Positions 2 through 15,742 of a DNA stretch of 20,712 nucleotides are shown piece after piece. The notes under the pieces are model-generated. The model searched no databases and had not been told where the DNA came from. It saw only the letters and a program-made list of their open reading frames with translations. A program made the position numbers and the translations under genes. Numbering within the stretch: position 1 is the stretch's first letter; each line of letters begins with the position of its first letter. Where the stretch lies: the IMG/VR virus record IMGVR_UViG_3300021085_002714, positions 1 through 20,712 of that record, one strand, 5' to 3'. Source of the stretch: a virus.

Positions 2-877
2 ACAATTTCTATATTAGTAAGAGCAGAACAACAAGAAGAAAAAGTTCCTATATGGTTAGTTGGTGATGAAGAAAGACAGTTTATAGAATATCCTATATTA
101 AGAAGGCCAGGATATGATTATGGATTAAGTTACAATAATTCTAGAGCATTTACAGCTCAACTTTGGAATAGTGAACGAGAACATCTATATCAATGGATAA
201 AGAGATATGAAAATCAATGGACAGTTATAACTCTTGTTGTTGATACTGATAATTCTAACATTCACTTTTATATGAATGGAAAAGAATCTGATGCAAGGTG
301 GGGAACTGGTACTCACTCACCATTAAAATATCAAGGTAATCTAAAAAGATATGGAAGTGTTCCTTTTTATTTAGGAACAACGACTTCAGTTCCCATCGAT
401 AATGTACAAAGATGGTTTAGGGGAGATATAGCAGACCTTAAAATATATAAAGGTGTATTATCGACAGAAGAAATTAAAGAAATACCAAAAACAATAATTG
501 ATGATAGATTAGTACTTCATTATGATTTTAGTGATGGAACTGCAACAGATAAATCGGGTAGAGAAAATCATGGAGAAGTTATAAACTGTAATCACAAAAA
601 GGGTAGTATAAATATTCCACACACTTCTGTACCTCACAGAAGATTAGGTAGATTATTCTGTTTACCTCATAAAGATGAAGGATTGGTAAAAAATGAACAT
701 GGTAAAGATGTTTGGGCAAAAGGAGAAACTACTGCAAGAAATGAAAGAAGATTTGTTCATCAGATGCAAGGTGGAAAATGGGACTATAAAAACGATGGTA
801 TGAATACCTTAAAATATAACCTAGTAAGTATTGAAGATATATCTGATAAAGCAAAAATGATAAACGTTACATTATGA
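2..877 (+). CDS. LamG-like protein with galactosyltransferase (GT7)-like C-terminus, 5' partial
   Basis: The reading frame is open from the first bases of the window, so the true start lies upstream; 291 residues are visible. The first ATG (272) falls inside a beta-rich stretch and is not a natural start. Visible residues 1-160 look like a LamG/concanavalin-A-like jelly roll, with a typical closing strand near residues 137-150 (FRGDIADLKIYKGVLS). LVLHYDFSDGTATDKSG at about 172-188 looks like the opening of a second LamG unit that is not completed. Residues 210-291 instead resemble the tail of beta-1,4-galactosyltransferases: an R-x-G-R...LPH strand, N..R, then DGMNTLKY at 265-272, equivalent to the family's DGLNSLxY. 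The catalytic GT domain, if present, would lie upstream of the window. Inferred role: glycan binding or transfer. It overlaps the next gene by 4 nt (ATGA). LamG call fairly secure, GT7 tail tentative. Confidence 0.7.
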   Translation, partial: TISILVRAEQQEEKVPIWLVGDEERQFIEYPILRRPGYDYGLSYNNSRAFTAQLWNSEREHLYQWIKRYENQWTVITLVVDTDNSNIHFYMNGKESDARWGTGTHSPLKYQGNLKRYGSVPFYLGTTTSVPIDNVQRWFRGDIADLKIYKGVLSTEEIKEIPKTIIDDRLVLHYDFSDGTATDKSGRENHGEVINCNHKKGSINIPHTSVPHRRLGRLFCLPHKDEGLVKNEHGKDVWAKGETTARNERRFVHQMQGGKWDYKNDGMNTLKYNLVSIEDISDKAKMINVTL

Positions 878-2280
878 ACCATCTACAAGATGTAAATAAC
901 AAACTAAATAAAGTTGGTTGTGGATTTTGTTTAGCAAAATGGACTCAAGTAACGATGCACCTTAGTACAGGTATGACTCATTCATGCCACCACCCATCTC
1001 CACACAAAATACCCTTAAGAGAAATACAAAGAAATCCATCTGCATTACACAATACAAGAAATAAAAAGGATAAACGGAGAGAAATGTTATCTGGTAAAAG
1101 GCCTGATGAATGTAACTACTGTTGGAATGTAGAAGATAACTCAAATTCATACTCTGATAGAACATTCAAATCTTCGGAACAATGGTCATGGCCAGAATAC
1201 GAAAAAATTAAGAATTCAAATTGGAGAGATAACTTCAATCCAAAATATGTTGAGGTTTCATTTTCGAACACTTGTAATTTTAAGTGTGCATACTGTGGTC
1301 CACAGTATTCTTCTAAGTGGGTAGAAGAAATAGAGAAACATGGTCCGTATAATACCTCTACAAATTATAATCAAATAGATACTCTTAGGAAAAAAGGAGA
1401 GATGCCCTATAAAAAGAGTGAAAAAAACCCCTATGTTGATGCTTTTTGGGAATGGTGGCCAGATTTGTATAAAGATTTGCATACTTTTAGAATTACTGGT
1501 GGAGAACCTTTACTTTCTAAAGATACATTTAAGGTATTAGAGTATATTAGAGATAATTGGGAGGAAAATCCAAATCTATCTTTAGCTATAAATACAAACA
1601 TGAATGTACCTAAAGGATTAATGAATCGTTTTATAGAATTGTGTGAAGATTTATCTAATAATAACAAAGTTAGAGAACTTATAATATTTACATCAGTTGA
1701 AGGAACAGATAAGCAAGCTGAATATACTAGATATGGGTTACATTATGAAACCTTTTGGAAAAATGTTGATACATTCCTAACCAAACTACCAAAAGTTACA
1801 GTAAACATTATGGCAACTTTTAATGCACTTTCAGTTTTCACATATAGTGATTTAATTGATAGAGTTTTTGATATGAAAAAGAAACATCAAAATGGTCAAA
1901 GATATTGGGTTTCTGCAATTCAGTTAGATACTTCATATTTAAGATGGCCATCTCACTTATCTGTTAGAATCTTAGATGATGAACACAAACAACTAATACT
2001 AGAATCTGCTAAGAAGGCTTTGTATTATGGTATTAAACAATTTACACACGATAATTATGGATTTTCTAATGTTGAGATACAAAAGATAAAAAGAATATAT
2101 GATTACTCGATAGGTCATAATGTGATATATGATATAGAAAAAAATAGAAAAGATTTCATAAAATTTGTAGATGAATTGGATAAAAGAAGAGGTACAAATT
2201 TTATAGAAACATTTCCACAACTAAAAGAGTTTTATGTTAGAAATAAGAAAGGGAAATCCATGGATATTTTGGCCAAGTAG
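874..2280 (+). CDS. Radical SAM protein 1, N-terminal SPASM/twitch-like module (CHH subtype)
   Basis: 468 residues. The radical SAM core carries the CX3CX2C motif CNFKCAYC at C134/C138/C141, which binds the SAM-cleaving [4Fe-4S] cluster, and GGEP at 209-212, which contacts SAM. Ahead of it is a cysteine module (C19, C38, C80, C83) built like a SPASM or twitch domain, which normally binds an auxiliary cluster and sits C-terminal to the core; here the order is inverted. The usual CC pair of the module is replaced by SCHHP (37-41). The core strand usually reading SIDG reads SVEG. The tail has LDKRR...FPQLKEF, shared with the other array members. It starts in an ATGA overlap with the LamG/GT7-like gene and overlaps the next LamG gene by 47 nt. 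It is closest to radical SAM protein 2 (2822). Family assignment is secure; reaction and substrate are unknown. Confidence 0.93.
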   Translation: MNHLQDVNNKLNKVGCGFCLAKWTQVTMHLSTGMTHSCHHPSPHKIPLREIQRNPSALHNTRNKKDKRREMLSGKRPDECNYCWNVEDNSNSYSDRTFKSSEQWSWPEYEKIKNSNWRDNFNPKYVEVSFSNTCNFKCAYCGPQYSSKWVEEIEKHGPYNTSTNYNQIDTLRKKGEMPYKKSEKNPYVDAFWEWWPDLYKDLHTFRITGGEPLLSKDTFKVLEYIRDNWEENPNLSLAINTNMNVPKGLMNRFIELCEDLSNNNKVRELIIFTSVEGTDKQAEYTRYGLHYETFWKNVDTFLTKLPKVTVNIMATFNALSVFTYSDLIDRVFDMKKKHQNGQRYWVSAIQLDTSYLRWPSHLSVRILDDEHKQLILESAKKALYYGIKQFTHDNYGFSNVEIQKIKRIYDYSIGHNVIYDIEKNRKDFIKFVDELDKRRGTNFIETFPQLKEFYVRNKKGKSMDILAK

Positions 2281-2815
2281 TATTTGTGATAGTCTACCAG
2301 AAAATCCAGCGGATAAATTACTTAACGGAAAACATTCTTATAAAATAGAATTATCCTTTACATTATTAGATAACTCATCTGATAAAAAAACTCTATTTTG
2401 TATATTACCAAAATACTCTGGTATTGATATAGAAAAAGAAAAACTATTTTTATTAGTAGGTAAAGAAGATAAAACCGAGTTTTATAACTTAGATTATGAT
2501 ATTTATCCTCATAAAAAAACACATATATTGTATGAGTATATTTATAGTGAGAAACTATGTATTACTATAAACAATAAACTAATAAAAGAAGTTAATTTAA
2601 CAGAACCACTTGGGTTTGATGAAAATCCACACATTATACTTGGGTCAGGAAACTTTCCTAAAAATGGGTTTAACTTAAATTACACAGATGTAAATTTCCA
2701 CGAGTTTAAGTTTTATTCAAATGGAGAGTTATTATCTAATCACGATTTTGAAGAATTTATTTTTGATAAATCAGTTGATAAAACAACAAATTGTAATTTT
2801 ATACATAAACTTTAG
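2234..2815 (+). CDS. Small LamG/ConA-like jelly-roll protein
   Basis: 193 residues, beta-rich and without signal peptide or membrane segment. The pattern fits a single LamG-like jelly roll: polar strands ending in NFHEFKFYSNGELLSNHDFEEF, the usual closing hairpin of phage and bacterial LamG domains. It then runs into DKTTNCNFIHKL, resembling the DxSGxxNHG opening of a following LamG repeat, like the arrangement in the gene at the left edge. The start chosen (ATG 2234) overlaps radical SAM gene 1 by 47 nt; no later in-frame ATG preserves the N-terminal strand. It lies between the two most similar radical SAM genes and 6 nt before the second. Inferred role: carbohydrate or protein binding, perhaps presenting a substrate. 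No catalytic residues are recognisable. The fold call rests on sequence pattern only. Confidence 0.68.
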   Translation: MLEIRKGNPWIFWPSSICDSLPENPADKLLNGKHSYKIELSFTLLDNSSDKKTLFCILPKYSGIDIEKEKLFLLVGKEDKTEFYNLDYDIYPHKKTHILYEYIYSEKLCITINNKLIKEVNLTEPLGFDENPHIILGSGNFPKNGFNLNYTDVNFHEFKFYSNGELLSNHDFEEFIFDKSVDKTTNCNFIHKL

Positions 2816-2821
2816 AGTTAT

Positions 2822-4453
2822 ATGAAGAGTATATTCGGAAAAAGAGAAAATGAAACATTTCAACAATATAGAGAACGTTCTATAAATTCTATCTCAAAAT
2901 CATTTTGTGGTGCCAAGTGGTACAATGCAACTATATGGTTAGGTAATGGAACAACGGCAAGTTGTCATCACCCACCTGCTCATAAAATACCTTTAGATGA
3001 GGTTGCCAAATCATATAAAGCTCTTCATAATACAACATATAAAAAAGCAATTCGTAAAGAAATGTTAGATGGGGTAAGACCCAAAGAATGTGAGTACTGT
3101 TGGAAGATAGAAGATTTGGGAGATGATAAAGTTTCCGATAGAGTTTACAAATCAGTAATATATTCAGATGAAGAACTTATCGAAGCAAAAGAAAAGTTTG
3201 GAGCAGGTTTAGATGTTGACTTGAAAACATTAGAAATTGCATTTGATGCAAACTGTAATTTTGGTTGTTCTTATTGTAACGCTTCTTTTTCTACTACATG
3301 GCAAAAAGATGTAAAACAATTTGGACCTTATCAAAATTTAGTATCTGATGGTGCTGGTGCATTCCAACACGATGGTGGTCATGCAATGCCGTATGGAAGA
3401 AAGAATGAAGGAAATCCATATGTAGAGGCTTTTTGGAAATGGTGGGAATCAGAATTACAATATACTTTAAGGGAATTGAGAGTAACAGGTGGTGAACCTT
3501 CAATGTCACCTGATTTTTGGAAACTAATGGATTGGTGGAAAGCAAATCCTGATTGTAAAGTACCTTTTGCCGTTAACTCTAATTTAGGACAAAAGAAAAA
3601 ATTATTAGATGCTCTAATTGAATCATCTAAAAGTTTTAAGGATTTTAGTATCTATACATCAAATGAAGCAATAGGTATTCAAGCTGAGTACATTAGATAT
3701 GGACTTGATTGGGATGTTTGGTTGAATAATATGCACAGAGTAAATTCAGAAGGAAATATTAAATCAGTAAATGTAATGATGACAATAAATGCACTTTGTT
3801 TATTTTCTATTACCGAGTTTATGGATGAAATGTTAATTCTAAAAGAAAAATACGGCCAAACAGCGGCAGTAATGTCTTTTAACATACTTCGATTTCCTTC
3901 TTTTCAATCAATAGTAACTTTACCTGAAAATATTAGATTAGAAAGAGCAGACCATATTGAAAAATGGTTAGAAAAAAATTGGAAAGGTGGAAGAGACGGT
4001 TTATTAGATATGGAAAGGGATGGTATAATTCGTACTATTGATTACATCAGAAGAATTGAATCTGGTCATAGACATACTTCATCTAAAGAAAGTAGAGAAA
4101 GAGATTGGAAATCATTTTATTCTCAATATGATAAAAGAAGAAAAAAAGATTTCTTAAAAGCATTTCCAATGTTAAAAGAATGGTGGGATAGTATACCTGA
4201 AACAAATGTGGCACAACTTAAGGGTGTAATTGATGGAGATGATGCTAAATCAAATAGATATGTTGATGAGGTATTGAAAAAAGCTAAAGATGAAGGTTGG
4301 GTATTGAATCCTCAATGGGCTAATCCAGGTGCACAAGATTACATAGAACCAGATGACCAACAACAAGATGATATGATTGATTTAGTGGAACAATTAAATG
4401 CAACCTCAGATGATAAGCATGTTGGTGGAGTGGTAGGAAAGAAATTATTATGA
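2822..4453 (+). CDS. Radical SAM protein 2, N-terminal SPASM/twitch-like module (CHH subtype)
   Basis: 543 residues, the longest of the array. The core cluster motif CNFGCSYC is at C145/C149/C152 and GGEP at 223-226. The N-terminal cysteine module has C29, C48, C90 and C93. As in protein 1, the CC pair is replaced by SCHHPPAHKIPL (47-58), and the SIDG-like strand reads TSNEA. Proteins 1 and 2 also share a stretch before GGEP (MPY...NPYV-AFW-WW), so they form a pair with the LamG gene between them. The array tail motif YDKRR...FPMLKEWW is followed by an acidic, glutamine-rich extension of about 80 residues (DDQQQDD near its middle) that the other members lack. It ends in an ATGA overlap with the next gene. 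The fold is secure; the substrate is unknown. Confidence 0.93.
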   Translation: MKSIFGKRENETFQQYRERSINSISKSFCGAKWYNATIWLGNGTTASCHHPPAHKIPLDEVAKSYKALHNTTYKKAIRKEMLDGVRPKECEYCWKIEDLGDDKVSDRVYKSVIYSDEELIEAKEKFGAGLDVDLKTLEIAFDANCNFGCSYCNASFSTTWQKDVKQFGPYQNLVSDGAGAFQHDGGHAMPYGRKNEGNPYVEAFWKWWESELQYTLRELRVTGGEPSMSPDFWKLMDWWKANPDCKVPFAVNSNLGQKKKLLDALIESSKSFKDFSIYTSNEAIGIQAEYIRYGLDWDVWLNNMHRVNSEGNIKSVNVMMTINALCLFSITEFMDEMLILKEKYGQTAAVMSFNILRFPSFQSIVTLPENIRLERADHIEKWLEKNWKGGRDGLLDMERDGIIRTIDYIRRIESGHRHTSSKESRERDWKSFYSQYDKRRKKDFLKAFPMLKEWWDSIPETNVAQLKGVIDGDDAKSNRYVDEVLKKAKDEGWVLNPQWANPGAQDYIEPDDQQQDDMIDLVEQLNATSDDKHVGGVVGKKLL

Positions 4454-5823
4454 AAATAAAACCATCAGAAGGAAATAAAACTTTTTGTATGGCACCTTGG
4501 TCTCATACATACCTTTCACCACAAAGTGAGAGAAGGTTATGTTGTGCTTCTAGAGAAAAGGCTAATTGGGCAACACAATACATTGATGGAGATTCTGCAG
4601 ATGAGGATTCAACTTATAATCCTGGTACATTAAAAGAACATTGGAATTCTGAATATATGAAAGGAATTCGTAGAGACCTAATGGCAGGTAAAGAAATACC
4701 ACAATGTACTGTTTGTAATGATAAACTACTAAATATTTCAATTTATAGAGATTACTTTACAAAAACATTGTTCCCAAATAAGATTGATGAGGCTTTTGAA
4801 AAAACAAGAGAAGATGGTCATACTGAGATGTTACCAATTTCATTTGATTACAGAGTACGAAATCTTTGTAACTTCAAATGTAGAATGTGTGGTGACCAGT
4901 TATCATCATCTTGGGAAGCTGAGAGAAGAGCAATGGGAGATTATGACCAAGAAGGTAATACAGATTTTTGGGCATTAAAAGAAAACAAACCTGCGATAGA
5001 AAATTTTCAAAAAGATGTTGCTGAAGCCGAATTATGGGAAGCAGTTAAGAGTGGAGTAATAGAAGAAATATATTGGGTAGGTGGAGAACCTCTAATGTGG
5101 GAGATACATTGGGAAATTATGGAATACTTAGTTGAACATGATTTAGCTAAAAATGTATGGATACGATATAATACGAATTTTAGTAGAACAACATATAAGA
5201 AGTGGAACTTAAGAGATATGCTTCCTCACTTCAAGACGGTTCAGATATGTGCATCTATCGATGGAGTTGGTGAAAATGTTGAATATGTTAGACACGGTAT
5301 AAAGTGGGATAGTTGGATACAAAATTTCAAAGATTTTACTTTCCTTAATAAAAAGTATGGTGATTATGGAATTGCATTCGATTTAACAATCACAACACCA
5401 GGCCTTTTCTGTTTGAAAGAGATGTTAGATTTGGCACTTGAACTGGATGTACATACATTAATAAAAACTACATTTGCATTTGATAGTTCTATAATGATGT
5501 GTCCTCAAGTATTACCTCGTGAATTATATGATGAAATTCTTGATGACTTGATAGAATATGTAACACCTAAAGTCCAAAACACTAAGTATTCAAATTGGAT
5601 AGATTGTTTGGTAGACTTAAAATCTAGACAAGTTTTTTCTGAACAATATGATGATTGGCAAGATGGATTAAAAAATGGTAAAAGAAGATTACAGAGAGTA
5701 GATAAGTGGAGAAGAAACGAAGGAGATATTGAAAAAATTTATGCACAAAATCCTAAAGTATTAAAATGGTGGAATTCAATAGATTTATCAGAAACTCCTG
5801 AGATAACAACAAATATAATATGA
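4450..5823 (+). CDS. Radical SAM protein 3, N-terminal SPASM/twitch-like module
   Basis: 457 residues. The N-terminal module has FCMAPW with C13, the CC pair C31/C32, and C86/C89, typical of SPASM/twitch auxiliary-cluster ligands. The radical SAM motif CNFKCRMC lies at C140/C144/C147 and GGEP at 211-214. It keeps the canonical SIDG strand followed by EYVRHG. The C-terminal tail reads VDKWRR...NPKVLKWWNSI, the same motif as in proteins 1 and 2. It overlaps the upstream gene by 4 nt (ATGA) and the downstream gene by 4 nt, implying translational coupling. I expect it to match NCBI's family of radical SAM proteins with an N-terminal twitch domain. No substrate can be inferred beyond the glycan-like context. 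Confidence 0.93.
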   Translation: MKIKPSEGNKTFCMAPWSHTYLSPQSERRLCCASREKANWATQYIDGDSADEDSTYNPGTLKEHWNSEYMKGIRRDLMAGKEIPQCTVCNDKLLNISIYRDYFTKTLFPNKIDEAFEKTREDGHTEMLPISFDYRVRNLCNFKCRMCGDQLSSSWEAERRAMGDYDQEGNTDFWALKENKPAIENFQKDVAEAELWEAVKSGVIEEIYWVGGEPLMWEIHWEIMEYLVEHDLAKNVWIRYNTNFSRTTYKKWNLRDMLPHFKTVQICASIDGVGENVEYVRHGIKWDSWIQNFKDFTFLNKKYGDYGIAFDLTITTPGLFCLKEMLDLALELDVHTLIKTTFAFDSSIMMCPQVLPRELYDEILDDLIEYVTPKVQNTKYSNWIDCLVDLKSRQVFSEQYDDWQDGLKNGKRRLQRVDKWRRNEGDIEKIYAQNPKVLKWWNSIDLSETPEITTNII

Positions 5824-7046
5824 TAGCCGCTGGAGAAGAATATAGAAAAAAATCATTTTGTGTATTACCCTTTACACATTTGGCAACTCATCCAATTGGA
5901 ACAGTTACTCCTTGTTGTATAACTGATATGACAAATAGCGTATCAACTGCTGCAAATAAAGATGGCCATCATTTATTCTTATCTAAAGATAGTTTAGATG
6001 ATATATCTAATTCAGATAAATTTAATAAGATACGAAAACAAATGGTTAATGGGGAATTCCCATCTGTTTGTCAAAAATGTTACAAATATGATTTTAATGA
6101 GGTTCATTCTAAGAGAATGGAATCCAACTTAAAATTTGCTCATTTAATTGATGAATGTTTTAAGAATGTTAATCCCGATGGTTCACTAAAAACAGTAAAC
6201 TACAAATATGTAGAATTAAGATTAGGAACAGTTTGTAATCTAAAATGTACTACTTGTAATCCGTTTTCATCTAATAGGTGGCATCAAGATATAGGTGCAT
6301 TTAAGGGAACAGAATTTGAAAGAGATTACTTTAGAAATGATATAAAAACAGAATGGTATAGAGATTATGATTTTTATGATGAATTATATACTAGATGTAA
6401 TGGGTTAGAAGAAGTTTGGATAAATGGTGGTGAGCCTACTTTAATAAAAGAACATGGATATTTCTTAAATAAATTCGTAGAAGATGGTAGGAGTAAAAAT
6501 GTAGATTTACATTACAGCTTAAATTGTACTCAGTTTCCAGACCATTTTATTGAATTATGGAAAAACTTTAGAAAGGTAAGAATACACTTATCGATAGATG
6601 ATATAGAAGATAGAAATTATTATGTAAGATTCCCATCAGACTGGAATCAGATATATAAATCATTTCAAAAAATAATCAAATATAAAGATGTATTTGATTT
6701 AGAAGTTTGCCAAACAGTATCTGCACTGAATGTACATAAAATGAATGATTTCAAAGATTGGGTAGATAGTTATGATTTAATAATTGCTCATAACTATGTA
6801 CATTGGCCGAATCATATGCACGTTTCATTGATACCAGATGAGATGAAAAAAGAAGTAAAGAAAAATATTAGTTCCTTGGCTCCACATGAAAAAGATAGGT
6901 TGATGTTGGAGCTAGATAAGCCGAGAGATTTGGATAATGAGAGGAGATTTTATAGTTTTATTAACTTATTAGATGAAAAAAGAAAAGTATATATAGGTGA
7001 TTACTTAGAAGAGTGGGATAAGTATTTTAAGGAAAGAAAAATATGA
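5820..7046 (+). CDS. Radical SAM protein 4, N-terminal SPASM/twitch-like module
   Basis: 408 residues. N-terminal module: C14 in FCVLPF, CC pair C32/C33, and C84/C87. Core: CNLKCTTC at C139/C143/C146 and INGGEP with GGEP at 203-206. The SIDG strand reads SIDD, and the usual EYxRxG motif reads YYVRFP, a local divergence from its neighbours. The tail keeps LDEKR followed by LEEWDKYF, a shortened form of the array tail. Start and stop both lie in ATGA overlaps, so the gene is embedded in a coupled run. Assignment to radical SAM is secure; specific function is unknown. Confidence 0.92.
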   Translation: MIAAGEEYRKKSFCVLPFTHLATHPIGTVTPCCITDMTNSVSTAANKDGHHLFLSKDSLDDISNSDKFNKIRKQMVNGEFPSVCQKCYKYDFNEVHSKRMESNLKFAHLIDECFKNVNPDGSLKTVNYKYVELRLGTVCNLKCTTCNPFSSNRWHQDIGAFKGTEFERDYFRNDIKTEWYRDYDFYDELYTRCNGLEEVWINGGEPTLIKEHGYFLNKFVEDGRSKNVDLHYSLNCTQFPDHFIELWKNFRKVRIHLSIDDIEDRNYYVRFPSDWNQIYKSFQKIIKYKDVFDLEVCQTVSALNVHKMNDFKDWVDSYDLIIAHNYVHWPNHMHVSLIPDEMKKEVKKNISSLAPHEKDRLMLELDKPRDLDNERRFYSFINLLDEKRKVYIGDYLEEWDKYFKERKI

Positions 7047-8284
7047 AAAATATGTGTACAGTACCATGGGTAGGTTTTTCAAATGACCCTGATGGTAGAA
7101 TTAGAGCTTGTTGTATATCTAAAGACCATGTTACCAAAGAAGATGGTTCATATTTTTATACTCAAAAAGATAATATCAAAGATATATTTCACAGTAAGTA
7201 TATGAATGATTTACGACAAGAGTTTAAGGATGGTAAAATGCCTTCAAACTGTTCAACTTGTTGGAAAGATGAAGAAAATGGTTATACATCTAAGAGACAA
7301 CATTACAATCAGATTATAAAAGAGTATTTGGGTGAACATGCTATACCAGAAATCATAACATCACAACCAGTTTCAGAATATCCTTTTGATTTTCAAGTAA
7401 TATTAACTAATGCTTGTAATCTTAAGTGTAGAAGTTGTGGTAGTTCACATAGTACAGAGTGGTATAAAGAATTAAAAACAATGACACCTGAAACTGTGGG
7501 TGAAATTGGTAATTATTTATATCCACTTCCACATGGACAAGCTGGAGATAGGAAGGGTGAGTTTATTTCATCAATGGAAGATTGGTTACCTTTTGTAAAG
7601 AGAATAGAAATAGTAGGTGGAGAGCCATTCTATACTAAGAATTGGGAAAATGCATGGAACTTTATGATTGAAAAGGGAAAAGCTCAAGATATTATATTAA
7701 ATATGTCAACCAATGCAACAATTATTAATGAACCACTGGTTCGTAGGATAGCTGAAAACTTCAAAAGAGTTGGTATAGGGTTGAGTATTGATGGAATGGG
7801 TAAAACTTTTGAGTATTTGAGAAAAAATGCAATATGGGATGAGGTTACTAAGAATCTAATTAAATTCAATGAAATAAATTTAGATTATCAGGCACATAAC
7901 AAAACATTTTTTAACTACACATATACAACCTCTTGGATTAATGCGTATGAACTGCCAGAATTCCATGATTGGATAAGAGAATATACACCAAGTTTTAATA
8001 TTTGGATGAATATAATTCATAGTCCTGAACATATGTGTTTATATATGATACCAAAAATATCAAAAGATAGAATTAAGAAAAAATGGTTATCATATGATTG
8101 GGGTAAATTTCAAAAAGATATAGATGGTATGATTTCATATATGTACTCGAAACAACCATCAAAAAGTGAAATAAAAAAGGTGTATAAAAGATATACAATA
8201 TTAGATAAATACAGAACTGAAAGTACATTCGATGTAGTTAAAGATAACTTTCCTGAATTGGAAGAATTTTTTGAAGATGAGTAG
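7043..8284 (+). CDS. Radical SAM protein 5, N-terminal SPASM/twitch-like module
   Basis: 413 residues. The cysteine module begins almost at the N-terminus (C5 in CTVPW), followed by C23/C24 and C70/C73. The core has CNLKCRSC at C125/C129/C132, VGGEP with GGEP at 192-195, and SIDG with EYLRKN. The tail reads LDKYR...FPELEEFF, matching the array consensus. The DNA coding for its CX3CX2C motif is identical over 28 bases to that of radical SAM protein 7. It starts in an ATGA overlap and its stop overlaps the start of the next gene. Confidence 0.93.
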   Translation: MKNMCTVPWVGFSNDPDGRIRACCISKDHVTKEDGSYFYTQKDNIKDIFHSKYMNDLRQEFKDGKMPSNCSTCWKDEENGYTSKRQHYNQIIKEYLGEHAIPEIITSQPVSEYPFDFQVILTNACNLKCRSCGSSHSTEWYKELKTMTPETVGEIGNYLYPLPHGQAGDRKGEFISSMEDWLPFVKRIEIVGGEPFYTKNWENAWNFMIEKGKAQDIILNMSTNATIINEPLVRRIAENFKRVGIGLSIDGMGKTFEYLRKNAIWDEVTKNLIKFNEINLDYQAHNKTFFNYTYTTSWINAYELPEFHDWIREYTPSFNIWMNIIHSPEHMCLYMIPKISKDRIKKKWLSYDWGKFQKDIDGMISYMYSKQPSKSEIKKVYKRYTILDKYRTESTFDVVKDNFPELEEFFEDE

Positions 8285-9518
8285 AGAACTTGCACTAGAA
8301 TCAAAAACATTTTGTTCTGCACTTTGGACTGGTATATATCAAGCTCCGAATGGCGATGTTTCCCCATGTTGTGTTTGGAATAAACCATTAGGAAATGTAA
8401 ATGGCTCTAGTATTAATGAAATATACAAATCAGATAGAATTCTTACTTTGAAACAAAAAATGTTAAGAGGAGAAACTCTTACCGAATGTAATTACTGTAA
8501 TAAACTAGAACAAGATACAGGTGATGAATCTACTAGAGATTTTTTTAATAGACACTTTTTCGATTTTATTGATTTCGAATCTACTAATGATAAGTTTGTT
8601 TATTGGGATTTAAGAATATCAAATTTATGTAATTTTAAGTGTAGAATGTGTTCACATGGACTTAGTTCTGAATGGTATGATGATTGGCAAAAAATAAAAG
8701 GAACAACCGAAAATAAAGTAATTAAGATTGATGATAAATCAAGCTTTTGGGATGAGTTAATTCCTCATTATGATTTTGTACAAAGTATTTATTTTGCTGG
8801 TGGAGAACCATTCTTAAACGAACATCATTATAGAATACTACAAGATTTAATTGATAGAGAATTATATGATACTAAAATTATTGTTAATACAAATGCTTCT
8901 ATAACACATTGGAAAAAGAAAAAAATACTTGATTATTATAAAAAGTTTAATTGTATAGTTTTTGGATTTAGTATAGATGGTAGTAATGAGGTTGGTGAAT
9001 ATATTAGAAAAGGATTGGATTATAAAAAGTGGAAAAAAACTATCAAAGAATATGTTAATTATATAGTGAAACGAAATAGTAAAGATATAACATACGTTTT
9101 TCAACATGCTTATGGAGTTACTAACTTTCATAACATATATGATTATATAGTAGATTTATTCAAAAGTGATTTGGTAACAAACTATACTCATTTTCAATTT
9201 CAACCAATAATGCATCCACTAGAACAATCTGTTACATCATTACCACCAAGTGTATTTAATAAATTTAAGGAAGATATAAAAAACATACCAAACATAGTTT
9301 CACAGTATGATTTAGATGAGGATATTTTAGATAGAATACAAGTACAACTAAATGGAATTATAAATTATGTAGAAAATAATCCATTTAGAAAAAACATATT
9401 AAATGATTTTTATCAAAAACAAGAAAAACTTGATAAATTAAGAAACGAGAGTATATATAATGTAATACCTGATTACAGAAAACAGTCAATAAATAGAGAT
9501 GGGAAAAAACTTATATAA
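8277..9518 (+). CDS. Radical SAM protein 6, N-terminal SPASM/twitch-like module
   Basis: 413 residues from the ATG at 8277. A TTG at 8271 would add two residues, but the ATG gives an 8-nt overlap with the upstream stop (ATGAGTAG), in keeping with the other junctions, so I prefer it. Module cysteines: C13 in FCSALW, C31/C32, C71/C74. Core: CNFKCRMC at C118/C122/C125, FAGGEP with GGEP at 175-178, SIDG with EYIRKG. The tail LDKLR...IPDYRKQ is a weak version of the array motif. It pairs with protein 7: both have WDxRISN before the cluster motif, LSSxW after it, a DDKxSF stretch, and IYFAGGEP. Confidence 0.92.
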   Translation: MSRELALESKTFCSALWTGIYQAPNGDVSPCCVWNKPLGNVNGSSINEIYKSDRILTLKQKMLRGETLTECNYCNKLEQDTGDESTRDFFNRHFFDFIDFESTNDKFVYWDLRISNLCNFKCRMCSHGLSSEWYDDWQKIKGTTENKVIKIDDKSSFWDELIPHYDFVQSIYFAGGEPFLNEHHYRILQDLIDRELYDTKIIVNTNASITHWKKKKILDYYKKFNCIVFGFSIDGSNEVGEYIRKGLDYKKWKKTIKEYVNYIVKRNSKDITYVFQHAYGVTNFHNIYDYIVDLFKSDLVTNYTHFQFQPIMHPLEQSVTSLPPSVFNKFKEDIKNIPNIVSQYDLDEDILDRIQVQLNGIINYVENNPFRKNILNDFYQKQEKLDKLRNESIYNVIPDYRKQSINRDGKKLI

Positions 9519-10815
9519 CATACAAGAATTAAAAGATTCTAAATCTTTTTGTATAGCTCCTTGGATAACAGCTCACACTTATCCAAGTGGAGATATATTC
9601 CCATGCTGTTTATATAACACAGACCCAGCTGATTATAAAGATACAGACCCATTGAAACCACCATTTGGTAACGTTAATAGAGATGAATTAAAAACCACTT
9701 GGAATTCTGATAAATACAAGGAGATGCGATTACAAATGTTGGATGGTAAGAAGCCTGTGGGATGTACTCGTTGTTATCACTTAGAAAAGAACGATGGTGA
9801 TTCGTATCGTAAAAAGTTTAGAAGAGACTTTGAGCACAAATATGAAATTGTTAATCAAACTCACGAAGATGGTACATTAGAAGATATGAAACTATATATG
9901 TGGGATTTCAGAATATCAAATTTTTGTAATCTTAAGTGTAGAAGTTGTGGTCCTGATTTATCATCAGCCTGGTTTCAAGATTATATGAAACTTTTTCCTG
10001 AAGATACCGAAAGAAGAGCTCTAATAAACATAAATGATAAAGCATCTTTTATGGATATGATTGAATCTCAATATGAATATGTGGAAGAAATATATTTTGC
10101 AGGAGGAGAGCCTCTTGTAATGCCAGAACATTGGTATATGTTAGAAAAGTTAATTCAAATGGAAAAAACCGATACACTAATTAGGTACTCAACTAACTTT
10201 TCTAAATTAAAGTTTGCTAAAAAACATATATTTGATTATTGGAAGAAGTTTGATAACTTAGATTTATATCTTAGTGTAGATGGTGTTGATGAAATAGGTG
10301 AATACGTTAGAAAAGGATTTATTAGTAATCAATTTATTCAAAATGTTAAAGATTTCTTAAATTCAGATGTAGGATACAGACAATTTGGATATATGGTAAC
10401 ATATGGTTCTCTAAACTTCTTACACTTATTTGATATTGTACTAAAGTTTTTTAATGAAGGTATTCTTGATAAAGAAAGACATGAAAAGCAGATAACAATG
10501 GCTTTTAGCCCTATAACACAACCTAATTACTATAATTGTCAACATTTACCTAATTGGGCAAAGAATAAATTCAAACTTAGGTTATCTACTTTTAGAAATG
10601 AACTAGAAAATATAGATGTTAGTAATGAAGTATGTGATATGATAATGAGAGATTTACAGAATGCTTATGATAGAGCGATTGAAACTCCATTTAACTTAGA
10701 ACAAATGAAAGTATTGAAATCATCTACTGAAAAATTAGATGTAATAAGAAAAGAAAGATTTGAAGATGTATTCTACTACTACGATGGTACAGATTCTCTA
10801 CTTAGGAATAATTAA
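9499..10815 (+). CDS. Radical SAM protein 7, N-terminal SPASM/twitch-like module
   Basis: 438 residues. Module cysteines: C18 in FCIAPW, C36/C37, C89/C92, with about 15 extra residues between the CC pair and the rest compared with protein 6. Core: CNLKCRSC at C143/C147/C150, FAGGEP with GGEP at 202-205, SVDG with EYVRKG. Tail: LDVIRKERFEDVF. It shares RISN, LSSxW and IYFAGGEP with protein 6 and probably arose with it by duplication. It overlaps protein 6 by 20 nt and protein 8 by 1 nt (TAATG). Fold secure, substrate unknown. Confidence 0.93.
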   Translation: MGKNLYNIQELKDSKSFCIAPWITAHTYPSGDIFPCCLYNTDPADYKDTDPLKPPFGNVNRDELKTTWNSDKYKEMRLQMLDGKKPVGCTRCYHLEKNDGDSYRKKFRRDFEHKYEIVNQTHEDGTLEDMKLYMWDFRISNFCNLKCRSCGPDLSSAWFQDYMKLFPEDTERRALININDKASFMDMIESQYEYVEEIYFAGGEPLVMPEHWYMLEKLIQMEKTDTLIRYSTNFSKLKFAKKHIFDYWKKFDNLDLYLSVDGVDEIGEYVRKGFISNQFIQNVKDFLNSDVGYRQFGYMVTYGSLNFLHLFDIVLKFFNEGILDKERHEKQITMAFSPITQPNYYNCQHLPNWAKNKFKLRLSTFRNELENIDVSNEVCDMIMRDLQNAYDRAIETPFNLEQMKVLKSSTEKLDVIRKERFEDVFYYYDGTDSLLRNN

Positions 10816-11924
10816 TGAAAACAAAAACTAATCTTAAAGATTTTGTATGTTGGTTTCCTTTTGGATTTACCGAGATAACACATGATAGACAAACTTTGTG
10901 CTGTTCGGGTTGGTTAACTAAAGATATTGGTTCAAATAAAAATCTAAAAGAAAATTGGGATAGTGATATTGCAAATGATATTAGAGAATCTGTATTAGAT
11001 GGTTCTTTTAAGTATTGTAAAAAAGATACTTGTCCATTTTTAAGTACAGTAATCAATTCAGGAATAGAAACTGGTCCAATTCTTAAGAAAAACAAAATAG
11101 GATTAAGTGGAGTAAATACATTAGAAGAATACAAACCGAAGCACCCATTAAAGGGAGCTGAAGAAACATTTGGGTATCCTAGTACTCCTACTCAATTTAA
11201 GGTAGTTTGGGATAATACTTGTAATTTATCATGTCCCTCATGTAGGCCTAACTTTATAACCAATTCAGATGGTAATACATTGAATACTGAAGAAATATTT
11301 AATGATATTATAACCCATTATGGCAAAGGTGTACACACGATGATGATGAGTGGATATGGAGACCCATTTTATAGCACAGGATTATTTAACTTTTTACAAA
11401 CAATAGATTCTAGTAATTGGCCAAGTCTAGAAAACATACATTTACATACAAATGCGATGTTATGGAATGAAAGAAATTGGAATATTATAAAAAATTCTCA
11501 CAGATGGATAAATTCTGCAGAAATATCTATCGATGCAGCTAATAAAGAAACATATCAAAAAGTTCGTAGAGGTGGTAAGTGGGATTTACTCTTAAAAAAC
11601 TTAGAGTTTATAAGTACTCTTGGTTTACGAGAGATAACATTCTCATTCGTAGTTCAGAAAGATAACTATACAGAGATGTTAGATTTTTATTTATTAATAA
11701 AAGATATATTTAAGAATAGTGATATAAATATTTTGTTTTATTATTACAAAATCTTAGATTGGGGTGTGATGAGTAAGGAAGAATACGAAGAAGCAGCTGT
11801 TTGGAAGGAATCACACAAAGAATATAAGTTATTTACAAAAGAAGTGACTGAGTTTATCAAAGAACACGATGAATCAGTATCACATAGTTTATGGGAATAT
11901 GAAGAAAAGAACAGTTTACTATAA
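10815..11924 (+). CDS. Radical SAM protein 8, divergent, lacks GGEP
   Basis: 369 residues, shortest and most divergent of the array. The N-terminal cysteine module is a different subtype: C12 in VCWFPF, CC pair C29/C30 followed by SGW, a WDSDIANDIRESVLDGSF stretch, then C68 and C73 (CX4C rather than CX2C). The core motif CNLSCPSC is at C136/C140/C143. Where the others have GGEP, this one has SGYGDP (179-184), so the SAM-contacting loop is changed but glycine-rich. SIDA replaces SIDG and VRRGGKW follows. The shared C-terminal tail motif is absent. It starts at a TAATG junction and overlaps the cupin gene by 26-56 nt. Probably a separate SPASM-type enzyme recruited to the cluster, acting on a different substrate or step. 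Confidence 0.9.
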   Translation: MKTKTNLKDFVCWFPFGFTEITHDRQTLCCSGWLTKDIGSNKNLKENWDSDIANDIRESVLDGSFKYCKKDTCPFLSTVINSGIETGPILKKNKIGLSGVNTLEEYKPKHPLKGAEETFGYPSTPTQFKVVWDNTCNLSCPSCRPNFITNSDGNTLNTEEIFNDIITHYGKGVHTMMMSGYGDPFYSTGLFNFLQTIDSSNWPSLENIHLHTNAMLWNERNWNIIKNSHRWINSAEISIDAANKETYQKVRRGGKWDLLLKNLEFISTLGLREITFSFVVQKDNYTEMLDFYLLIKDIFKNSDINILFYYYKILDWGVMSKEEYEEAAVWKESHKEYKLFTKEVTEFIKEHDESVSHSLWEYEEKNSLL

Positions 11925-12426
11925 GGATAGACCATTAGATGATTATCATTTCTATGATGGTAAGGTACTTCCAAAAGTTAAGGTAGTACAGTACCCTACT
12001 TTCTTTGAAGGAGGTTCATCTATATCATTTACTTATGATTCTTTCAATCACGATAAGTTAATTCCTGCTACAGAGAGAACTGATAACATTATTTTTCGAA
12101 AAGACCTAAAGATTTCAATTAAAAGGGGAATAAAGGATGGTGTATTTTTTGATAGTTGTTATAATTTTGTAACTTGCTTGAAAGGATATATCTTTTTAAG
12201 TGTAACCAACTTAATGAAAGGTACGGATACTTATAATTTTAGTGAGTCGTTTATATTAAGTGATGAAAATCCAATACAAGTGTTGATTCCACCGTTTTAT
12301 GGATTTGCATATCAGTCATTAGAAGATTCTATAATATTAGATAAAATGGCATATAAATCTGAACAATCACTTATACAAGAAAAAATAGATATTAATAAAC
12401 TAGACATAGAATGGCCATGGGAATAA
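11899..12426 (+). CDS. RmlC-like cupin (degenerate dTDP-sugar epimerase-like)
   Basis: 175 residues from ATG 11899; an upstream in-frame ATG at 11869 would add ten residues and lengthen the overlap with radical SAM gene 8 from 26 to 56 nt. The order of motifs follows dTDP-4-dehydrorhamnose 3,5-epimerase (RmlC): a FRKD-K-S strand, a KRGIKDGVFFD loop (about 75-85), CLKGYIFLSV, VLIPPFYGFAYQ, and the closing DIEWPW. RmlC converts dTDP-4-keto-6-deoxyglucose to the rhamnose precursor through a histidine in a RGLHYQ loop. Here that loop reads DGVFFD, so the arginine and catalytic histidine are absent, and the IPpGfaHGF histidine is also replaced. It may therefore be a binding or non-canonical isomerase protein. 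Its presence supports a nucleotide-sugar theme for the block. Confidence 0.72.
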   Translation: MKKRTVYYKDRPLDDYHFYDGKVLPKVKVVQYPTFFEGGSSISFTYDSFNHDKLIPATERTDNIIFRKDLKISIKRGIKDGVFFDSCYNFVTCLKGYIFLSVTNLMKGTDTYNFSESFILSDENPIQVLIPPFYGFAYQSLEDSIILDKMAYKSEQSLIQEKIDINKLDIEWPWE

Positions 12427-12533
12427 TAAAATTTATAAAAGATTTCTTAAAAAAAAGAAAACAAGATAAAATTTACAAGAAAAGATTAGAAGAACTTCGT
12501 AAAAGAGACCCATTTACTTACAAAAATCATTAA
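12417..12533 (+). CDS. Small basic hypothetical protein (38-40 residues)
   Basis: An ORF of 38 codons from ATG 12417; ATG 12411 in the same frame would make 40. It overlaps the end of the cupin gene by 10 or 16 nt and fills the stretch before the next gap. The product is strongly basic, with a GIIKFIKDFLKKRK amphipathic-looking start followed by a KRLEELRKRDPF helix. No domain is recognised. Overlap style and lysine/arginine-rich composition without stop codons favour a real gene, but an ORF this short could be chance. It is not obviously a leader-core precursor peptide. Confidence 0.5.
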   Translation: MGIIKFIKDFLKKRKQDKIYKKRLEELRKRDPFTYKNH

Positions 12534-12547
12534 ACTTAACAATTTCA

Positions 12548-12559
12548 ATATTTATATAC
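12548..12559 (+). promoter_or_regulatory. Putative promoter-type element ATATTTATATAC
   Basis: This lies in the 44-nt gap before the 1054-residue gene, 18 nt before its ATG and followed by a ribosome-binding site (TAAGGTG, 12563-12569). The same 12 bases recur in the next gap at 15767-15778. The core TATTTATA is the reverse complement of the T4 late-promoter octamer TATAAATA and is close to self-complementary, so direction cannot be decided from sequence. Confidence 0.4.
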
Positions 12560-12577
12560 TGATAAGGTGTACCAGAT

Positions 12578-15500
12578 ATGAATGAACTTTCCAAATTTCT
12601 CGTAGAGAGTATAATGGAGGATGCGAATCCTATTAAAAAAACAGTAGTTATCTATGTGGGTAGGTTTCAACCTATGCACAAAGGACATGCTGGTACTTAC
12701 CAACACCTTGTCAAAAAGTTCGGTAAGGATAATGTTTATGTTGGTACATCTGATAAGGTACAATTACCTAAATCACCTTTTAACTTCAAAGAAAAGGTGA
12801 AAATTATGACTACTATGTTTGGAATTCCAAAATCCAAAATACATAAAGTCAAGAATCCATACAAACCCACAGAAATTCTTAAAAAGTTTGATGAGAAAAC
12901 AACTGCATTTGTAACTGTTGTTGGTGAGAAAGATAAAAATAGATTAAAACCAGATAGTGGTAAATACTTTCAATCATACAAAGGAGACCCATCAGAAGGA
13001 TATCTAGATAGAGGATATGTTTATGCAGCACCATCAAGTGGTGGAGGAATAAGTGGTACAGAAACTCGTAATGGTTTATCAGTTGGTTCTGATGACCAGA
13101 AAAAGAATTTCTTTAAGAAACGAGCATATGGAAAGTTTAATGCAACGATTTTTAAGATGATTACTGATAAACTTGATGAAGGAATTGAAATTTCTAAAGA
13201 GATGATTGAAGATTGGCTCATTAATGAAAGTTCGAATATTACCACAGGTCAAGTTGATGATGGGCCAAACTTCTTCATTCCTAACTACGATGTATTTTCT
13301 CGTATATCTGCAAAACGTGCAGCAAATATTGGATATGAAGTAGTAAATATGATTACATCAAAAGAAATTGAAGATTACTATGACCATCCAACTTATCCTG
13401 ATGGACCTGTTAAAGCAGTAACTCCATTCCCAGCTGGTGTACTTGGTACACAAACCGCAACTAACCAAGTTGATATATACTCAAGTGATGCTTATTCTAA
13501 ATGGTTTACTCATGTAACTCGTAAAGCAGCAATGGTTGGTTATGAATTGGTAAAAGGATTGGATACTACTAAAGATACCAAAGATGCATCATTGGATTCT
13601 CAAAAAGGTGATAAGAAATCACAAGAAGAATACGAGGCTTCTCTAAACGAGAACATAGTACTACCAATTAAGGTTGGGGATACTATTATGACTGGTAGAT
13701 TTAAGAATAAGAAAACAGTTGTTAAAGCAATCGGTAAAGATGAACATGGAATGCCAACAATCAATGGTAGAAAAGTGGTTACCTTTAGAATGGTTAAAGA
13801 AGGATTCATCTCAGAACTTGCAGGAACAGAAGTAAAGTGTGAAAAATGTAATCACCAATGGGAAATCGAATCTGATGATAGTGAAAAGTACTTATGTCAT
13901 TCATGTGGATGGGATTCACAAAAAGGAGAGTACGATTTTGATGCATTTGATTCGTGGCAAGAGAAAATGGGTATATCCGAAGATGTGGATATCGATGAAA
14001 GAAGTAAAGGTAAACTCAGACCTGCTGATAAGTTGAGAAGAAAAGCAGCAATGGCTGGAAAACGTGCTCAAATCGCAAGAAGAAGAGCAAGAACGATGAA
14101 AAGAAGGAAACCTCTTTCTAAACTTAAGAAAATCGCATACAAAAAGGCATATCTACAAGTTTATGATGAATTTAGAGAAGAATTGTTTCCAGGTATCTCT
14201 AAAAAAGATTTATCTATCCAACAAGCAAAGATAGTTCACAAAAATGTAGTAAGAAAAAAAGGAAGAGTTCTTAAAAGAGCAAAATTTAGATTCTTACCAG
14301 CATTAAGAGATGCAGAAGCACAGAAATTCGCACAAAAGAACGAAGATTCCAATCCAAATGCACATCCACAAGGTAAAAACAAACTTACTAATCGTACAAC
14401 TGTGATGGATATGTTAGATGTAATCTCTCATAAGGAATTTAGGGGTAAAGATTACGATAAACTATCAGATTCACAGAAGAAAAAGGTATTAACGGTTGCT
14501 AAACAGCAGAAATTCATCAAAGAAGGTAAAGAGGTGATAACTGAGGGTGGTGCGTATGGACATATGTCTCATCCATTTGATACTGATATCAATTTAACCT
14601 TTGGACAACTTAAAGATATCGTAAATCGTGCACTCGAAGGTACACTTGAGTTCACAAGAGAGAAAACAGATGGTCAAGCACTAGCTATTTCATGGAGAGA
14701 TGGTAGGTTAGTAGCAGCGAGGAACAAAGGACACCTAAAGAACAGAGGTGAGAACGCTTTAGATATCAAAGGGGTATCAGATAAGTTCCAAGGTAGGGGT
14801 GGATTGAGTGATGCATACAATTATGCGATGAAAGACCTCTCAAATGCAATCAAATCACTTAACGATAAACAAAGAGATAAGATATTCAAACAAGGTGCGT
14901 GTTTCATGAACCTTGAAGTGATATACCCAACATCAGTAAACGTTATTCCTTACGGCCAAGCGTTACTTGTGTTCCATGGTACTATGGAATTCAACATGGA
15001 AGGTGTTGCAATTGGAGAAAATGGTGAATCAGCAAGAGTATTAGCTGGTATGATTAAACAAGTCAACAAAGATGTACAAGATAATTACACTATTCAAGGA
15101 CCTCCTATCGTAAAATTACCAAAATCACAAAATTTATCTACTAAACGTAGTAAATACTCATCTAAAATCACTAAATTACAAAAAGAGTTTGGATTAAAGG
15201 ATACAGATGGTGTTGCAAACTATCACCAAGCGTGGTGGGAACAATGGGTAGATAAAAATTCTCCATCATCACTTGATAACAAAACCAAAATGGGGTTAGT
15301 TAAGAGATGGGCGTTCATGGATAAAGGATTTAGATTAGATAAAAAGAACATTACTGATGAAAAAACATTAGAATGGGCTAAGAAAACAGACAAAGATGAC
15401 CAAAAGAAGATTAGTAAGAAGAACTTAATGAAGTTCGAACAGATATTCTTAGGTTTGGGTGCAGAAGTGTTAGAGTTCACCTCATCTGCACTAACAGTTA

Positions 15501-15742
15501 ACGCTGATTCAGCAGTTCGTGATATGAAAAAACGAATTGATAAGACAATAAAAGATGTTAAGAAATCAGGTGACCCAAAAAAGATAGAAAAACTTAAATT
15601 AGAACTTGGTAGATTAAAATCTATCGGTGGTTCTAAAAAGATTGTACCAAATGAAGGTATTGTATTCTTATATAAAGGTAACACCTTCAAACTCACAGGT
15701 ACATTCGCATCGGTAAACCAAATACTTGGTATTTTCTTCTAA
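12578..15742 (+). CDS. Mosaic nucleotidyltransferase / ligase-like protein, possible processed polyprotein
   Basis: 1054 residues. In order: (1) about 20-205, a cytidylyltransferase/NMNAT-type nucleotidyltransferase with VGRFQPMHKGH (HxGH at 34-37); (2) 218-358, a segment with a duplicated motif RISAKRAANIGYEVV (242-) and HVTRKAAMVGYELV (312-); (3) 359-413, an SH3-like strand set (IKVGDTIMTGRFKNKKTVV); (4) a CX2C...CX2C zinc ribbon, C421/C424 and C440/C443; (5) about 474-620, an extremely Lys/Arg-rich segment; (6) 657-1054, an ATP-dependent ligase-like domain with motif I EKTDG (K696 the expected adenylated lysine), NLEVIYP near 778, EGIVF at 1026-1030 and FKLTG (K1038). Modules are separated by LVE, INE, LNE, ISE, ISE and ITE tripeptides resembling T4 prohead-protease sites. 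Whether both catalytic centres work is not known. It begins a new unit after a 44-nt gap. Confidence 0.82.
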   Translation: MNELSKFLVESIMEDANPIKKTVVIYVGRFQPMHKGHAGTYQHLVKKFGKDNVYVGTSDKVQLPKSPFNFKEKVKIMTTMFGIPKSKIHKVKNPYKPTEILKKFDEKTTAFVTVVGEKDKNRLKPDSGKYFQSYKGDPSEGYLDRGYVYAAPSSGGGISGTETRNGLSVGSDDQKKNFFKKRAYGKFNATIFKMITDKLDEGIEISKEMIEDWLINESSNITTGQVDDGPNFFIPNYDVFSRISAKRAANIGYEVVNMITSKEIEDYYDHPTYPDGPVKAVTPFPAGVLGTQTATNQVDIYSSDAYSKWFTHVTRKAAMVGYELVKGLDTTKDTKDASLDSQKGDKKSQEEYEASLNENIVLPIKVGDTIMTGRFKNKKTVVKAIGKDEHGMPTINGRKVVTFRMVKEGFISELAGTEVKCEKCNHQWEIESDDSEKYLCHSCGWDSQKGEYDFDAFDSWQEKMGISEDVDIDERSKGKLRPADKLRRKAAMAGKRAQIARRRARTMKRRKPLSKLKKIAYKKAYLQVYDEFREELFPGISKKDLSIQQAKIVHKNVVRKKGRVLKRAKFRFLPALRDAEAQKFAQKNEDSNPNAHPQGKNKLTNRTTVMDMLDVISHKEFRGKDYDKLSDSQKKKVLTVAKQQKFIKEGKEVITEGGAYGHMSHPFDTDINLTFGQLKDIVNRALEGTLEFTREKTDGQALAISWRDGRLVAARNKGHLKNRGENALDIKGVSDKFQGRGGLSDAYNYAMKDLSNAIKSLNDKQRDKIFKQGACFMNLEVIYPTSVNVIPYGQALLVFHGTMEFNMEGVAIGENGESARVLAGMIKQVNKDVQDNYTIQGPPIVKLPKSQNLSTKRSKYSSKITKLQKEFGLKDTDGVANYHQAWWEQWVDKNSPSSLDNKTKMGLVKRWAFMDKGFRLDKKNITDEKTLEWAKKTDKDDQKKISKKNLMKFEQIFLGLGAEVLEFTSSALTVNADSAVRDMKKRIDKTIKDVKKSGDPKKIEKLKLELGRLKSIGGSKKIVPNEGIVFLYKGNTFKLTGTFASVNQILGIFF

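Follow-up and report, generated by a model that had tools for sequence, protein, structure and literature searches.

Positions 1 to 20,712 of the IMG/VR record IMGVR_UViG_3300021085_002714, a stretch of 20,712 nucleotides (nt) from an uncultivated T4-like phage and referred to here as the window, contain eight consecutive genes for radical S-adenosylmethionine (SAM) enzymes, RS1 to RS8 (874-11924, + strand). We consider it somewhat probable that this array is a glycan-editing cassette, whose enzymes would make successive radical C-H edits of a surface glycan made by the phage. This reading fits because RS1 keeps constant company with a galactosyltransferase-like (GT7)-LamG fusion protein and a small LamG protein, because the neighbourhood is rich in sugar genes, because there is a bacterial parallel, and because the enzymes form an ordered series.

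Eight radical-SAM genes with an N-terminal twitch domain

The original prediction described eight adjacent genes, each encoding CX3CX2C and an N-terminal cysteine domain, interrupted by a single LamG gene. All eight were recovered as described, with the following coordinates. Model confidence is given as the predicted local distance difference test score (pLDDT).

874-2280, + strand: RS1, N-twitch radical-SAM enzyme and core member of the array (NF033640 345.6 bits; AlphaFold2 pLDDT 93.8)
2234-2815, + strand: small stand-alone LamG (lectin-fold) protein (AlphaFold2 fold; clusters with the LamG part of GT7-LamG)
2822-4453, + strand: RS2, N-twitch radical-SAM enzyme (NF033640 316.6 bits)
4450-5823, + strand: RS3, N-twitch radical-SAM enzyme (NF033640 316.5 bits; own orthologous clade, support 1.0)
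5820-7046, + strand: RS4, N-twitch radical-SAM enzyme (NF033640 323.3 bits; PF13186 SPASM at residues 14-88; own clade)
7043-8284, + strand: RS5, N-twitch radical-SAM enzyme (NF033640 289.5 bits; SPASM at residues 5-74; own clade)
8271-9518, + strand: RS6, N-twitch radical-SAM enzyme, TTG start as listed (NF033640 307.9 bits; nearest to RS7)
9499-10815, + strand: RS7, N-twitch radical-SAM enzyme (NF033640 337.7 bits; SPASM at residues 18-93)
10815-11924, + strand: RS8, divergent N-twitch-type radical-SAM enzyme (NF033640 58.6 bits, positions 2-349 of 398; PF04055 46.6 bits)

The open reading frame (ORF) coordinates agree with the predicted joining of the genes by overlaps of 1-20 nt within the radical-SAM run, apart from the LamG insertion and a 6-nt gap. 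RS1 overlaps the LamG gene by 47 nt, the gap lies between LamG and RS2, and the junctions from RS2 to RS8 are overlaps of 4, 4, 4, 14, 20 and 1 nt in order. The interrupting protein has no Pfam match. Its AlphaFold model (pLDDT 90.5) is a LamG/pentraxin/CBM40 sandwich (Z 14-16, and about 14 with CBM40 lectins), in agreement with its assignment to LamG.

In profile searches against radical-SAM subfamilies, RS1-RS7 passed the 170-bit cut-off of NCBIfam NF033640 (N_Twi_rSAM, twitch domain-containing radical SAM protein) over the full model, with 289.5-345.6 bits. RS8 lies below this cut-off yet retains the full architecture, and judged by its sequence it is a divergent relative of the family and not a member. 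CX3CX2C is present in all eight proteins, and C18, C37, C89, C143, C147 and C150 (RS7 numbering) are invariant in their alignment. In this alignment RS8 has no counterpart of the last CxxC cysteine. Pfam matches SPASM in RS4-RS7.

A profile of the eight proteins matched, at N-terminal positions 12-90, the C-terminal twitch domain of BtrN (PDB 4m7t, E 5.5e-5). BtrN is a 2-deoxy-scyllo-inosamine dehydrogenase with a sugar-like (aminocyclitol) substrate. The auxiliary domains are thus related in sequence, but the twitch is C-terminal in BtrN and N-terminal in the array enzymes, none of which has the overall BtrN architecture of a core followed by a C-terminal twitch; BtrN is, moreover, a single enzyme of an antibiotic pathway. 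The RS1 model, made from 37 sequences, has as its nearest solved structures SkfB (Z 14.7, root-mean-square deviation 3.6 over 228 residues), DesII (13.9), BlsE (13.0) and MoaA (12.7), and CteB (5why), SuiB and anSME likewise score high. SkfB acts on a peptide, DesII and BlsE act on sugars, and MoaA acts on GTP.

Mostly old orthologous enzymes under purifying selection

At least 412 relatives of RS1 were found in viral contigs, the best at 86% in the locus L056, which has the same eight-gene array in the same order. CX3CX2C was intact in 537 of 537 full-length copies from the window and the viral loci, a sample in which some loci overlap and in which the length filter favours intact genes. In a tree of 188 representatives, where some deep branches are weakly supported, each window protein fell in its own orthologous group. 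RS6 and RS7 alone are close to each other (joint clade support 0.992), and RS8 has orthologues in other arrays (clade support 1.0). Ratios of non-synonymous to synonymous substitution rates (dN/dS) between the window and L056 were 0.05-0.28, and are rough since dS is near saturation.

These sequence comparisons place most of the eight enzymes in separate orthologous groups of long standing that are under purifying selection. Recent tandem duplication was rejected, most slots being separate deep clades common to several phages. Pseudogene decay was rejected on the intact motifs and the dN/dS values, and the copies in related phages, which would have told against the original prediction had they been frameshifted, are almost all intact. 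Two copies are each split into two ORFs, RS3 in L097 (14726-16027) and RS2 in L021 (8242-9536), through decay or assembly error.

Whole viral records hold 1 to 14 N-twitch copies, so the eight of the window are within that range. The statement that enzymes of this class usually occur singly did not hold for this subfamily, which commonly occurs in multiples in such phages. The original prediction had also offered a choice between a multi-step pathway and diversification on one scaffold; ancient diversification, with distinct conserved enzymes set out in an ordered series, explains the array better than a set of redundant copies would.

A conserved core with a graded series of partners

Arrays like this one, similar or shorter, are present in many related environmental phages. 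The upstream neighbour of RS1 belongs to the GT7-LamG cluster in 61 of 73 distinct loci, and the downstream neighbour is a small LamG protein in 65 of 75. The usual order is methyltransferase, glycosyltransferase family 2 (GT2)-like protein, 68-residue protein, two GT7-LamG proteins, RS1, LamG, RS2 and then a variable series. Adhesin-like genes lie on one side of the cassette and the tail sheath gene on the other.

Some loci have RS1 by itself, some pair it with RS2, and others add further members, to as many as seven partners, the order being largely fixed. Array composition was surveyed in 69 loci picked through RS1, relatives among which share blocks by descent: RS1 is alone in 12, RS1-RS2 make up the array in 14, and RS2 is present in 55. 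No RS1 locus had RS3 without RS2 or RS5 without RS4. Apart from the window, a single related contig, which the survey counts twice under the names L056 and L137, carries all eight. In a second lineage (L009-L055) the series is a different one, of five to seven genes, together with carbamoyltransferase genes.

Neighbour families in the phages include GT7, GT2-like, GT25, Gly_transf_sug, GDP-mannose dehydratase/epimerase, UDP-glucose dehydrogenase, DegT, RmlC, E1_dh, Methyltransf_24, carbamoyltransferase and SGNH esterases. Many of these neighbours are glycosyltransferases, enzymes of nucleotide-sugars or decorating enzymes. A cluster of proteins of about 400 residues (c3; for example L062:13552-14877 and L053:8743-9939) lies in or near arrays in 62 loci, and its scanned representatives had no match in Pfam, NCBIfam or PHROGs.

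Bacterial homologues

In the phylum of a Bdellovibrionaceae metagenome-assembled genome (MAG), 55 of 192 sampled genomes had homologues above the cut-off, many of them multi-copy, and in the phylum of a Rhodobacteraceae MAG, 3 of 200. The genes around an RS1-like pair in the Bdellovibrionaceae MAG include GT2 genes and those for a sugar nucleotidyltransferase, a GDP-mannose dehydratase and an E1/transketolase, and by its gene content one MAG locus resembles a polysaccharide cluster. Across 20 bacterial regions GT2 was the commonest neighbour family (11 of 141 neighbours), and methyltransferases, WbsX, TylF, RmlD and DegT were also present. None of the bacterial homologues found has an established unrelated function, which would have told against the original prediction. 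In the contigs L148, L149 and L151, classed as bacterial, the neighbouring genes are phage-like; these contigs are probably phage sequence that was sorted into MAGs during binning, and they were therefore left out of this argument. Genomes of the L150 phylum each have several N-twitch radical-SAM genes on the chromosome, adjacent or scattered (for example G139:C9, G057:C4 and G049:C79), apparently an uncharacterised bacterial expansion.

A possible editing pathway

The company of GT7-LamG and LamG around RS1, the sugar-modifying neighbours and the bacterial relatives near glycosyltransferases support the carbohydrate or surface-linked product suggested earlier. In such a pathway the GT7-LamG glycosyltransferase, with the other glycosyltransferases and the methyltransferase found upstream in relatives, would build a short glycan, and LamG domains would hold it. 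RS1 would make the first radical C-H change on a sugar, cleaving SAM at its predicted CX3CX2C [4Fe-4S] cluster, and the N-terminal twitch cluster may help to transfer electrons, a role proposed in BtrN. RS2 to RS8 would be different enzymes acting after RS1, each on another position or residue, by epimerisation, dehydrogenation or deoxygenation. By changing its list of enzymes a phage could alter its surface chemistry. We infer the successive steps, the chemistry and the recipient, which may be the virion or the host surface; since the cassette sits among structural genes, we lean towards virion proteins over a host-surface glycan. A more specific form of the proposal, which we put forward only tentatively, is an N-twitch assembly line working through a finished surface glycan and rewriting it one position at a time, in which RS1 acts first and each added enzyme extends the edit. 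Diversity would then come from radical enzymes and not from glycosyltransferases.

A phage 2Fe-2S ferredoxin was considered as electron donor and rejected, none being present in 26 records. Of 26 phage records with N-twitch genes, 7 (G005, G008, G010, G013 and G421-G423) have a gene for an A-type Fe-S carrier, too few to claim a link.

Several observations weigh against glycan editing by an ordered pathway. We infer a glycan from gene company and homology, not from an observed substrate, product or glycan. The array order is not strict, because RS8 stands earlier in some arrays, and the nested composition may reflect inheritance of blocks and not the order of steps. GT2 provides just those 11 bacterial neighbours, a count with no background rate, and many neighbours have no family. 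Finally, the top structural match of RS1 is the peptide maturase SkfB, within one Z unit of DesII; with peptide, nucleotide and sugar enzymes all among its fold neighbours, the fold cannot decide the substrate of RS1.

Alternative substrates

The fold leads directly to one rival, in which the enzymes modify proteins or peptides by epimerisation or crosslinking, in the manner of maturases of ribosomally synthesised and post-translationally modified peptides (RiPPs). The LamG proteins, the upstream tail-fibre or adhesin proteins, or a small precursor would be the substrate. We regard this as unlikely, though it is the foremost of the possible alternatives, ahead of small-molecule chemistry and then DNA modification. 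Many characterised SPASM/twitch enzymes act on peptides, and SkfB, CteB, SuiB and anSME all score high against RS1. A conserved gene of about 68 residues (c5), third upstream of RS1 in many loci, might supply a precursor, but its product was unconvincing in that role, having a conserved helical body, a short acidic variable tail and no evident core peptide. Against this rival too, no RRE/PqqD domain was matched in the eight proteins (Pfam, E <= 0.1, a scan that divergent RREs could escape, just as a precursor could be encoded away from the array), and most of the neighbours that could be assigned to a family are sugar enzymes.

The enzymes might instead act before assembly, on nucleotide-sugars or on a small aminocyclitol-like molecule in an antibiotic-like pathway. 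The kinship of the twitch domain with that of BtrN speaks for this, as do the carbamoyltransferase genes of the second lineage, a protein cluster (c15) that resembles amidinotransferase by eye only and has no Pfam match, and the pairing of radical-SAM genes with an annotated amidinotransferase in the Campylobacter phage CP220. The constant partners of RS1 are, however, GT7-LamG and LamG and not enzymes of a small-molecule scaffold, and no dedicated scaffold synthase was recognised; we consider this rival distinctly improbable. Least probable is a role in hypermodification of phage DNA. T4-like phages modify their own DNA, and radical-SAM enzymes take part in some thymidine hypermodification pathways, but no base-hydroxymethylating or DNA-glucosylating gene was recognised among the annotated neighbours, and the bacterial homologues lie near glycosyltransferases.

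Relation to known systems

The original prediction knew of no described function for such a phage array. Arrays had in fact been reported, in the Campylobacter phages CP220/CPt10 (2010), with 11/12 radical-SAM proteins and a five-gene interchangeable module (PMC2853527), in the marine T4-like genome TARA_ERS488813_N000010 (2017), with 12 radical-SAM genes (PMC5332604), and in pelagimyophages (2020), with radical-SAM cassettes in the host-recognition cluster (PMC7029224). The statement stands in that none of these three reports gives a tested function.

CP220/CPt10 are like the window in being distantly T4-related and in having many radical-SAM genes, with an exchangeable cluster beside genes for a sugar-nucleotide-transferase fold and an amidinotransferase. 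They differ in that the CP220 radical-SAM proteins match the window profile only in its core, from model position 111 on, or not at all; in the CP220 region examined these proteins are without the N-terminal twitch and belong to a different subfamily. The marine T4-like genomes and pelagimyophages, compared with the window by published counts and position alone, share multiple radical-SAM genes and variable cassettes in or near the host-recognition cluster (PMC5332604, PMC7029224). The layout of an N-terminal twitch and a radical-SAM core links seven of the eight enzymes to NF033640, but the name of that model carries no substrate or function, and the ordered phage array with GT7-LamG and LamG is an addition to it.

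In searches of a collection of phage records by tblastn, RS1, GT7-LamG and the GT2-like protein found no record among cultured phages, and the only matches to RS7 were in two Vibrio phages and one single-cell contig (21-24%). The open-access papers searched gave no earlier description of the GT7-LamG/RS1/LamG core, of a graded ordered array or of a connection with glycan loci of bacteria, nor did they report any phage that chemically edits a surface sugar chain. Thus multi-copy radical-SAM phages and the NF033640 family are already known; new, as far as the open-access papers searched show, are the conservation of the core, the graded and ordered make-up of a series of old orthologues, the bacterial glycan-locus link and the relationship to the BtrN twitch. 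Radical editing of surface glycans is a little explored field. If the glycan-editing reading is true, a widespread system would explain the many radical-SAM genes in some T4-like phages, a puzzle since the 2010 Campylobacter phage genomes. As RS1-only, RS1-RS2 and longer arrays exist, the pathway could be rebuilt and tested enzyme by enzyme.

Other genes in the window

The genes that flank the array are as follows.

2-877, + strand: LamG part (C-terminal half) of a GT7-LamG fusion that runs off the window edge (open 5′ frame; Laminin_G_3 match)
11869-12426, + strand: RmlC-like (dTDP-sugar 3,5-epimerase family) cupin, overlapping RS8 by 56 nt (PF00908 35.6 bits, cut-off 27)
12578-15742, right flank: 1054-residue protein with an N-terminal cytidylyltransferase-like domain
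17722-19314: terL (nearest to Microcystis and Flavobacterium phages, 54-56%)
from 19780: gp20-like portal

The left flank had been called LamG/GT7-like. LamG was correct, and the gene is now identified as the LamG half of a GT7-LamG fusion, truncated by the window edge: its product clusters with full-length GT7-LamG proteins (PF13733+PF02709+PF13385), and L056 has a whole version. The RmlC-like gene adjoins RS8 in L136 and L056 as well. No Rfam family was found in the window, and promoter and terminator scans of it did no better than on shuffled sequences. In the 1054-residue protein, EKTDGQ further on resembles the KxDG motif of nucleotidyl ligases, and the protein is possibly a fusion.

The right flank also encodes a 2-oxoglutarate-Fe(II) oxygenase, followed by terL and the portal gene, which bear out the T4-like setting. 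We name no host, the similarity of terL being insufficient. In L132 a psbA-like gene (photosynthetic reaction centre; 11623-12684) lies directly downstream of an RS1 orthologue (54%), and at least one RS1 phage therefore probably infects a cyanobacterium.

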